Of a stretch of 64,000 nt of DNA, positions 48,399 through 63,985 are shown piece by piece. Each line of letters begins with the position of its first letter. The stretch's first letter is position 1. A program made the translations under genes and the position numbers. The notes under the pieces were generated by a model, which worked only from the letters and a program-made list of their open reading frames with translations, did not search any database and was not told the origin of the DNA. The stretch comes from Caprimulgus europaeus (taxonomy: Eukaryota > Chordata > Aves > Caprimulgiformes > Caprimulgidae), in NCBI GenBank assembly GCA_907165065.1, contig OU015550.1, forward strand, positions 5,181,501 to 5,245,500, in the 5' to 3' direction.

Positions 48399-52614
<4,216 letters not shown>

Positions 52615-58402: not shown

Positions 58403-61400
58403 ATGAGCGCTTGCGAGTGGTGAGTACAAGAGATGGGAGGGTGACCACTGCCATGGGGCACCTTCCTGCTGGGCTTCTCAGCCCTCACTTGGCCAGGCTC
58501 TGACTGTGGGGATGCTGTGCTGTGTGTCCAGGAGCAGTGGCAGAGGACGGGGATGCTGTGGCTCCTGGTGCTGGTGACACCACGTCTGCTTTTTACTGCG
58601 CTGGGGGCAACTGCACCTTGTCACTATGGGCACGTTGGGCCAACACACACACACACACACGAGTCCCAGAACTGGCTTGGGATTGTGGTAGGAGCCATAT
58701 CTGTAACTCTGCTCTTCCAACGAGCTCTGTGCAACCTCCCACTGGTAATGGGGCTTCCGAAAACCTTTCTTAAGAGGGGCACCCAAAAATGAAGGGTAAG
58801 GAGCACTAGTCATTTCTGAAAATGAAGCCCCAGATTTTTGGACACATCACCTTAAAGACAAAAAAAACCCCAAAACCTAGAAGTGAACCAGCAAAAATTG
58901 GTCTCAAACATGCTTTGAAGCAACGGCTGCCAAACAGCACCTGAAAGATTTAAACTAATTTGGTTATTTCTTTCACTTAGACTAAATATTTTTCTCTTGT
59001 TCAGGTGGGTGCTTGTTGCCACCTCAGCTGTCACCTTGATCCTCTACGCTCTCCTCTTGCTGACACTTTACATCATGCTCAGCAGGAAAATAGGTGATTT
59101 ACTGTCTCCTTGGCTTTGCCTGTTGCATTCCCCTTCTCACTCGCGGGCGTCCAGTTCAGAGTTTGCCCAAAGCTTCGACCTCCCCGGTGTGTGAAACACA
59201 ACCAGGTCCTTGTTCTGGGCCTGGGTCTTGGGGAGTGATCAGTGCCACTGTAGAGCCCACGAGTGCGGCAGCTGGGACCCCCTCACACCCTCCAGACCCC
59301 TCTGTGTGCCATCGGCGTGGGGTGGGGATGGGTCAGGACAGGGATCATCCAGGGCCGGGCTGTGACCGGGGGGCTGCCCCGACCGAGCGGCTCTGAGTGC
59401 GGTGGGCAGTGCTGGATGGGGTTATACAGACTTTTATTGTTCCAAAAGCATTTTCTTTTATTACTCGTGTTAGTAAAGTGATGGAAAAATACCATCAGCA
59501 TCAATTTGTAAAATATTAATTCAGATGAAGCTCCAATTTCCAGCAGGAAAACCTTTCACACAGAACTGCTGCCCACGTTTATACATAAACAAGCTCTGCT
59601 TGGCCCCGTGGGTCAAACTCATTTCGAATTTGTGCAGGAAGAGGCTCTGGTGGTGCCATTAACACCAGAATCCTTCATTGTGGGAGACCAGGGCCCTCAC
59701 TTCATCACTGCTGTAGTTGAATTGATCGATATTTGCCTGCTCCAATACAAAACAATAATTATTGCTGTGCCAGTGGCTTGTGCTGAACTGGCTTTGCTGT
59801 GGGGCAGAGCTGGGGTGTGGGGAGCGGGTTTGGGGTTTGTGGGACATGGGTGCACTGGACATGGTGGGTTGGGGTCCGTGTGGCCCTGCGCATGGGGTGC
59901 ATGGGACACAGTGGGTGGGGGTGCATGGGACACGGTATTTGGGGTGCATGGGACACGGTGGGGGTGCATGGGACACGGTATTTGGGGTGCATGGGACACA
60001 GTGGGTGGGGGTCCATGTGACACAGTGTTTGGGGTGCATGGGACACAGTGGGTGGGGGTCCGTGTGACACAGTGTTTGGGGTGCATGGGACACAGTGGGT
60101 GGGGGTCTGTGTGGGACCAGCCGCTGTCCCGGGCTGGAGCAGGGCTCTGACTCCCCTCTCGGTTGCAGCCCGGCATTCCCGCAGCGAGCGGGCGAGCAGC
60201 AGCCCCGCGGCACAGCAGGCTCCGAGCTCTTCAGCGGGAGGGGAAGGGGTGCAGAGACCGACCTACGCGGGTAAGGGGGGCTCCCGCAGCAGCGGGGGTT
60301 TTCCTGGCACGTGAATATGACGGTGTGGTGCTGCATTTGTGCAATACTCTGTTCCTTAAGGAGCTGTGGGGACCCAGAGCTGTTGGCCTCGGGGTGGAAG
60401 AGGCAGCAAGCAGCCGGGCGATGGGCAGGCACCCACTCACGATCCCAGCTGCCTCCTGCCTCTGTGGGGCTGTCTCTGCCTGGTTCCCCACGGGTGGGTG
60501 GGTGGGTGAAGCAGGGTGGGATCACACTGGTGCTTTTTGGATTTTCAATTTTCATTCTCGAGCACATTTACTTTTTCTCCCTGTTTTTTTTTTATTTTCC
60601 TTTAACCCCCCCCAAGCGGCCATGGAAGGGGTAATGTTTCCTGTTTTTAAGGGAGCAGTGACACGTCTTCAGAGACCTCAGAGGACTCGGACAGCAGCCC
60701 TTCCCGCCCCCAGGTACAGCCATGGGCAGAGGCCCTTTGCCAAAGGCAACCACAGCCACAGCACCGGAGCTGCCAGCACCGTGTCCATGTGGCTCCTGCC
60801 CACCCTGAGACCCACAGAGCAGCAACGGGGGGGCAAAGACATTGAAATATCAGCGGTGAGGGTGGGGTGATGGTTGTCACTTGCCATATACAACATTCCC
60901 ATTTAGATGGAAGCATCCCCAGGAGCTGGGGAGACCACAGAATCCCAGAATGGTGGGGTTGGAAGGGACCTCAGGAGATCATCCAGTCCAACCCCCCTGT
61001 CAGAGCAGTTTCCCTACACCAGGTTGCACAGGAAAGTGTCCAGGAGGGTTTGGAACATCTCCAGAGATGGAGACTCCACACCCTCTCTGGGCAGCCTGTC
61101 CCAGTGCTCAGAGATCCCTGGGCACATCCCAGGCATCTTGAACAGACACTCACCTTCGTGTGGATTCAAGGGCAAAGCTGCCCCAGGGGGATGCCAGTGC
61201 CTGACCTGGGGTTTGTATCTGCTTCTGCAGGGTCCTTGCTTGGAAGAAAACCTCAATTACACATCCCTGGTCTTCCCAGGAAAAAGCCGTGGGCCAAGCT
61301 CCACCAGGGACTACGAGAACATGAAGACTGGGGCGGATTATGTCAACGTGGACCCCAAAAAGAGGAAAGTGGATTTCTGGTCCTGCTCCAGCCCTGTGGC

Positions 61401-61437
61401 ATCCAAGTCCATGGAGTACACCGAGGTGAAGCTGTGA
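58403..61437 (+). CDS. RHEX: RHEX-like single-pass membrane adaptor with GRB2-type tyrosine motifs
   Basis: Five plus-strand exons (58403-58419, 59005-59093, 60169-60270, 60652-60713, 61231-61437) join in frame into 158 residues (human RHEX about 172). Residues 7-31 form one membrane helix (WVLVATSAVTLILYALLLL...), with only about six residues outside. The cytoplasmic tail is Ser-rich (SSDTSSETSEDSDSSPSR), then carries tyrosines Y100 (LNYTSLVF), Y118 (RDYENMK), Y127 (ADYVNVDP) and Y153 (MEYTEVKL-stop). This follows human RHEX in order: helix, Ser/Asp-rich segment, DYENI-x-DYVNV, FW, terminal EYxxV. Human RHEX binds GRB2 through these tyrosines in erythropoietin signalling. The position beside CTSE also fits. 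Exons 3-5 are secure by frame and similarity. The 17-base first exon (MSACE, donor GTGAGT) is the best fit but least certain, and a noncoding exon may precede it. No clear AATAAA was seen close downstream. Confidence 0.8.
58642..58660. repeat. (AC)n microsatellite in RHEX intron 1
   Basis: About nine CA units between CCAA and GAGTCC. Confidence 0.95.
59845..60113. repeat. Minisatellite in RHEX intron 2, about 47-bp higher-order unit
   Basis: Repeated GGGGTGCATGGGACACAGTG and GGGGGTCCGTGTGACACAGT halves, with a period of about 47 bases at its right end and shorter units at its left. It ends about 55 bases before the RHEX exon 3 acceptor. The open frames it creates on both strands are artefacts. 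Confidence 0.93.
60936..61112 (-). mobile_element. CR1 LINE 3' fragment in RHEX intron 4
   Basis: CACAGAATCCCAGAATGGTG, then GGAAGGGACCTCAGGAGATC and the CCAGAGATGGAGACTCCACA block. It is antisense to RHEX and about 120 bases from the last RHEX exon. Confidence 0.93.
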
Positions 61438-63786: not shown

Positions 63787-63985
63787 ATCACAGAATGACA
63801 GGGGTGGGAAGGGACCTCAGGAGATCATCCAGTCCAACCCCCCCTGCCAGAGCAGGTTCCCTACAGCAGGTCACACAAGAATGTCCAGGAGGGTTTTGAA
63901 CATCTACAGAGATGGAGACTCCCCACCCTCTCTGGGCAGCCTGGCCCAGGGCTCTGACACCCTTACAAAGGTTCCTTCTGCAAAG
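63787..63985 (-). mobile_element. CR1 LINE 3' fragment at the right edge
   Basis: GATCACAGAATGACAGGGGT, then GGAAGGGACCTCAGGAGATC and continuing past the CTCTCTGGGCAGCCTGGCCC block. It may run beyond the window. Confidence 0.9.

Follow-up and report, generated by a model that had tools for sequence, protein, structure and literature searches.

A five-exon gene of 158 codons followed by TGA lies on the forward strand at positions 58403–61437 of the window, the whole 64,000-nucleotide stretch of the Caprimulgus europaeus genome analyzed here (C26:5181501–5245500). The exons joined from the window sequence contain no internal stop. The coding part of exon 1 (58403–58419, +) encodes MSACE plus 2 nt and ends at the donor gtgagt of a phase 2 intron. 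Exon 2 (59005–59093, +) encodes a single predicted transmembrane helix and then basic residues (LSRKI), and exon 3 (60169–60270, +) encodes a weakly conserved linker. Exon 4 (60652–60713, +) continues with a Ser/Asp-rich linker (SSDTSSETSEDSDSSPS), and exon 5 (61231–61437, +) carries NYTSL (Y100), YENM (Y118), YVNV (Y127), FW, and EYTEV (Y153) before the TGA stop codon. As stated in the original prediction, the gene has five exons, and all four introns are GT...AG and consistent in phase; the exon lengths of 17, 89, 102, 62, and 207 give intron phases of 2, 1, 1, and 0. The start codon is the less certain part of the model. Upstream of the ATG at 58403, the frame stays open as far as 58274 and contains no other in-frame ATG, and there may be a further 5′ exon. 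When four splice positions were moved by one base and the resulting joins were translated, many joins were likewise stop-free, but the shifted joins broke GT/AG and were rejected; among the joins tried, only the chosen one keeps GT/AG at every intron. Because so many other joins are stop-free, the open frame is by itself weak evidence, and the family match is the argument for the gene.

Repeats are found in two of the introns. Intron 2 holds a tandem array at 59848–60107 (period 47, 5.6 copies), overlapped by a second tandem repeat row at 59893–60104 (period 23, 9.2 copies). Intron 4 holds, close to exon 5, an interspersed repeat read from the sequence at approximately 60938–61160, which we take to be CR1-like. 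A second CR1-like stretch lies at about 63800–63960, and the translated string PQEIIQSNPP is common to both.

The whole model matched the Pfam family PF15763 (RHEX; DUF4692) with an E value of 1.5e-29 and 104 bits against a cut-off of 27. The match spans residues 6–157 (152 of the 158) and profile positions 2–166 of 167. When the exons were searched as three pieces, exon 5 alone (profile positions 104–166, E 5.9e-19, 69.6 bits) was the only one above the cut-off. Exons 1 and 2 (positions 2–31, E 0.013, 16.4 bits) remained below the cut-off of 27, and exons 3 and 4 (positions 50–98, E 0.24, 12.3 bits) were not significant alone. These two pieces carry weight because no family other than RHEX appears at E up to 1 for any of the three pieces and because the pieces are collinear with the profile. 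For the whole model, four other Pfam families appeared at E up to 10, a range in which the HMMER filters lose most matches above about 0.1; the best of them (0.038) is below its own cut-off, and none is a tyrosine adaptor. Against the PDB, the complete model had only weak similarities: TFIIE alpha in three of five matches (best E 0.026), the helix region of the oxytocin receptor (E 1.9), and an RNA helicase.

The genome searched comprises 1,177,730,439 bases in 121 contigs. At E up to 0.001, with the best candidates scored, the protein search gave four matches, all within the RHEX locus, and the PF15763 search gave a single match, which is exon 5 (two candidates scored). No second copy of RHEX was thus found in the 1.18-Gb genome among the best candidates scored in the protein and Pfam model searches. 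Likewise, no PF15763 match was found among the best candidates scored in 14 control genomes. In viral contigs, six stretches fit the pattern of exon 5, and none was confirmed as a relative.

The gene lies between neighbors that are in keeping with this assignment. Exons of CTSE (cathepsin E) occupy 48402–51055 on the reverse strand (ORF boundaries, not gene boundaries), divergent from RHEX. The joined pieces have Cathepsin E (1tzs, E 7e-168) as their best PDB match, and PF00026 was found in four scanned ORFs. On the other side, beyond the right end of the window, a vasopressin V1-type receptor is encoded on the reverse strand (L005:1694–2890), convergent with RHEX. Its best PDB match is the V1a receptor (3e-103), and no V1b chain is among the 12 matches with E up to 1e-40; the name AVPR1B follows from the position in the gene order. 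A possible last piece of this receptor (L005:553–1170) matched 7tm_1 at E 0.01, below the cut-off. Farther out, beyond the receptor, lies an exon with a PF14976 match (L007:5645–6025, E 3.6e-19), which we take to be FAM72. In human, CTSE is followed by RHEX, AVPR1B, and FAM72A; CTSE and RHEX are transcribed divergently, RHEX and AVPR1B convergently, and the bird order fits this arrangement. The adjacency to CTSE that had been claimed from the sequence, as in human, is therefore borne out; of the proposed CTSE–RHEX–AVPR1B synteny, CTSE, a V1-type receptor, and a FAM72-like exon are in place, and the paralogue name AVPR1B is given by position only. Based on the family match, the search for a second copy, and the neighbors, the earlier assignment as an ortholog stands: the predicted gene is very probably bird RHEX (C1orf186), with a general role as a membrane adaptor, and the case for this identification from sequence is strong.

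For the alignments, a human RHEX sequence was assumed. Its residues S56, S80, S128, Y132, and Y141 fall at the numbers published in two papers (PMC10177086, PMC11518702), which supports the assumed sequence. The local alignment of the bird and assumed human proteins scored 173, and 1000 shuffles averaged 30.5 and did not exceed 59. Identity to the assumed human sequence amounts to 52 of 154 aligned residues. It is distributed over exons 1–5 as 1/6, 9/29, 6/34, 9/21, and 27/64, exons 1–4 being poorly conserved. The bird protein (158 residues) is smaller than the human one (172 residues), and its linker is shorter and diverged. Shared with the assumed human RHEX are one helix, the Ser/Asp-rich linker, the YxN pair, and Yxx(V/L) motifs both upstream of the pair and at the C terminus. 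The single N-terminal helix is clearly predicted, as had been claimed: the best 19-residue Kyte–Doolittle mean is 2.36 (residues 8–26). If translation starts at the ATG at 58403, windows above 1.6 are confined to residues 4–36, and there is no long ectodomain.

Five of the six cytoplasmic tyrosines of the assumed human RHEX pair with bird tyrosines (human–bird: 84–68, 113–100, 132–118, 141–127, and 167–153), so that Y68 and also Y100 (in NYTSL) are aligned as well; the remaining one, Y155, corresponds to a bird Ser. The motifs DYENM, DYVNV, and EYTEV occur in the predicted order. Bird Y118 (YEN) and Y127 (YVN) are GRB2-type YxN sites equivalent to human Y132 and Y141, with the spacing of nine residues kept; when the cytoplasmic part of the bird protein was shuffled, 7 of 100000 sequences had such a YxN pair. 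In the alignment, bird LNYTSL (Y100) stands opposite human VDYTQV (Y113), a candidate ITIM position under the consensus [SILV]xYxx[ILV]; this loose pattern also fits human LDYENI and, by chance, ILYALL in the bird helix.

The ligand and receptor with which human RHEX is connected also appear to be encoded in this genome. The single EPO_TPO family match, at 29.3 bits (cut-off 25), is an EPO-like last exon (L010, C57:15096–15218) on an 83.6-kb contig; the 3.1 kb around it have a GC content of 65%. Only two PDB entries were listed for it at E up to 10, and both are erythropoietin (best E 0.0013). This exon fits the GC-rich “hidden” avian EPO of the literature. EPOR-like exons (L016, C26:870813–870941 and downstream; 69% GC in the 3.1-kb locus) share a contig with RHEX, about 4.4 Mb apart. 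Their second exon piece matched EPO receptor chains at 1.5e-12, and the first matched the thrombopoietin receptor weakly (0.009). Thrombopoietin receptor-like exons were observed at about 12674203–12674832 (minus strand) of contig C11 (L012/L014), and we take these to be MPL. An 82.6-Mb contig carries four EpoR_lig-bind matches, presumably the prolactin receptor on the avian Z. The EPO-like and EPOR-like exons are in line with the first report of chicken EPO and EPOR in 2015 (PMC4539667) and with a list of hidden avian genes that includes EPO (PMC12954441). The former also reports that primary chicken erythroid progenitors are not EPO-dependent (PMC4539667). A crude count of GATA sites gave no erythroid regulatory signal in the CTSE–RHEX interval, the introns, or the downstream region, as WGATAR occurred near expectation: 15 observed versus 12.3 expected in the interval, 0 versus 3.7 in sum in the four RHEX introns, and 3 versus 3.9 downstream. 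E-box/GATA-like composites numbered 11, a count without a control.

Here, we propose a mechanism for bird RHEX by analogy with the human protein. In published work, EPO or SCF induces phosphorylation of Y132 and Y141 in human RHEX, which binds GRB2 (PMC10177086, PMC11518702); human RHEX supports ERK activation with EPOR (PMC10177086, PMC8307237), and in human mast cells it dampens ERK and p38 in the KIT pathway, possibly by diverting GRB2 (PMC10177086). Bird RHEX would be a small single-pass membrane adaptor with a very short N terminus, a helix, and a Ser-rich tail, which the basic residues directly after the helix suggest to be cytoplasmic. Y118 and Y127 would most likely be phosphorylated by a receptor-associated kinase, either JAK2 on EPOR or KIT itself. 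GRB2 would dock at the phosphorylated YxN sites through its SH2 domain, and the RAS/ERK output would thereby be tuned. RHEX kept at its receptor, as with EPOR, would raise this output, and RHEX that diverts GRB2, as has been suggested for KIT in mast cells of human, would lower it. The orientation in the membrane, the phosphorylation, the binding of GRB2, and the receptor partner are all inferred here from the human protein. Because the docking sites are kept on a membrane-held tail, a human-type mechanism is the best guess, most likely with bird RHEX providing GRB2 sites at the membrane for EPOR/JAK2 or KIT. The GRB2 step itself probably operates in birds.

A short N terminus, one helix, and several Yxx(V/L) and YxN motifs are also the layout of other transmembrane adaptors, and the protein might resemble RHEX through short tyrosine motifs only, being in fact LAT, LAT2/NTAL, PAG1, LAX1, SIT1, LIME1, TRAT1, or a relative of HGAL/GCSAML. 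LAT, LAT2, and PAG1 would have, like bird RHEX, a membrane-held tail with phosphotyrosine docking sites, and HGAL and GCSAML (C1orf150) are described together with RHEX as EPOR- and KIT-modulated adaptors in a review (PMC11518702). However, neither group is represented among the five Pfam families listed for the bird protein, where RHEX stands at 1.5e-29 and none of the other four is a tyrosine adaptor; for adaptors that have a Pfam model, no family is thus a better match. The Cys residues of the bird protein are at positions 4, 93, and 142, so that it lacks a juxtamembrane CxxC just inside the helix, which we take to be the motif of the LAT/PAG type. With CTSE as the neighbor in addition, such an identity is hardly credible. 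Strongly diverged linker exons and a CR1-like repeat beside exon 5 would suit a decaying RHEX pseudogene that is intact in this bird by chance. Against this, all splice sites are GT/AG, neither a stop nor a frameshift is present, and the tyrosine motifs have been kept since birds and mammals split about 320 million years ago. Unconstrained sequence should not stay alignable over such a time, and decay is very unlikely.

If the gene is a working RHEX adaptor, the receptor that it serves is a further question within that explanation, not an alternative to its identity. Bird RHEX may serve cells driven by KIT or antigen receptors, such as mast cells and gamma-delta T cells, and not the EPOR of red-cell precursors; its erythroid role would then be a human specialization. 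Pig RHEX is reported to be high in CD2-negative gamma-delta T cells, and a goat TRDC+ T subset is similarly named by RHEX. The restraint of KIT signaling in human mast cells (PMC10177086) and the reported EPO independence of chicken erythroid progenitors (PMC4539667) point in the same direction. The EPO-like and EPOR-like exons in this genome and the action of human RHEX with EPOR (PMC10177086, PMC8307237) speak for the erythroid receptor, and we regard the two possibilities as nearly balanced, with the KIT or antigen-receptor assignment slightly the less probable.

A 2023 paper places RHEX in primates, describes it as absent from rodents and lower vertebrates, and calls in vivo study in rodents impossible, the gene having emerged later in evolution (PMC10177086). 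A 2024 review likewise describes RHEX as absent from mice, rats, and lower vertebrates (PMC11518702), and it is from these two papers that the loss in rodents is taken. The original prediction had treated a bird ortholog as a surprise for a primate-restricted gene. That restriction is indeed in print, and it was already contradicted by work on pig, goat, and horse (for the horse, a table row) in which the gene name RHEX is used; the surprise is smaller and the novelty weaker than had been hoped. Among the literature matches listed, titles and the beginnings of abstracts gave no description of bird RHEX, and none under the name H1orf186. Public annotation presumably already lists the bird gene. 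A paper considered as a source for chicken RHEX (PMC11401434) was rejected, as “RHEX” there is a protein motif.

The syntenic ortholog in bird and human supports, by inference, the earlier claim that RHEX goes back at least to the ancestor of amniotes. It reverses the reading of a late emergence: RHEX predates the split of mammals and birds, and mouse and rat, if they lack it, have lost the gene or let it diverge beyond recognition. A broader proposal joins this ancient amniote RHEX to the retention of EPO, EPOR, RHEX, and the GRB2 sites in birds, with mouse and rat as the odd ones out, to a coupling of EPOR or KIT to GRB2/ERK in blood cells, and to a possible phosphatase-docking brake at bird Y100 and human Y113. 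As a whole, this proposal is tentative and on balance somewhat doubtful; if it is true, the brake may explain the opposite effects of RHEX on EPOR and KIT. Chicken EPO and EPOR were first described only in 2015, and it has been doubted that chicken red-cell precursors depend on EPO; the presence of RHEX in a bird therefore makes the question of its receptor directly testable. Bird RHEX adds a member to a known gene family, and the find itself is real. It contradicts a published evolutionary statement on RHEX in a way that bears on the choice of models, and this gene could then be studied in birds, pigs, and goats.
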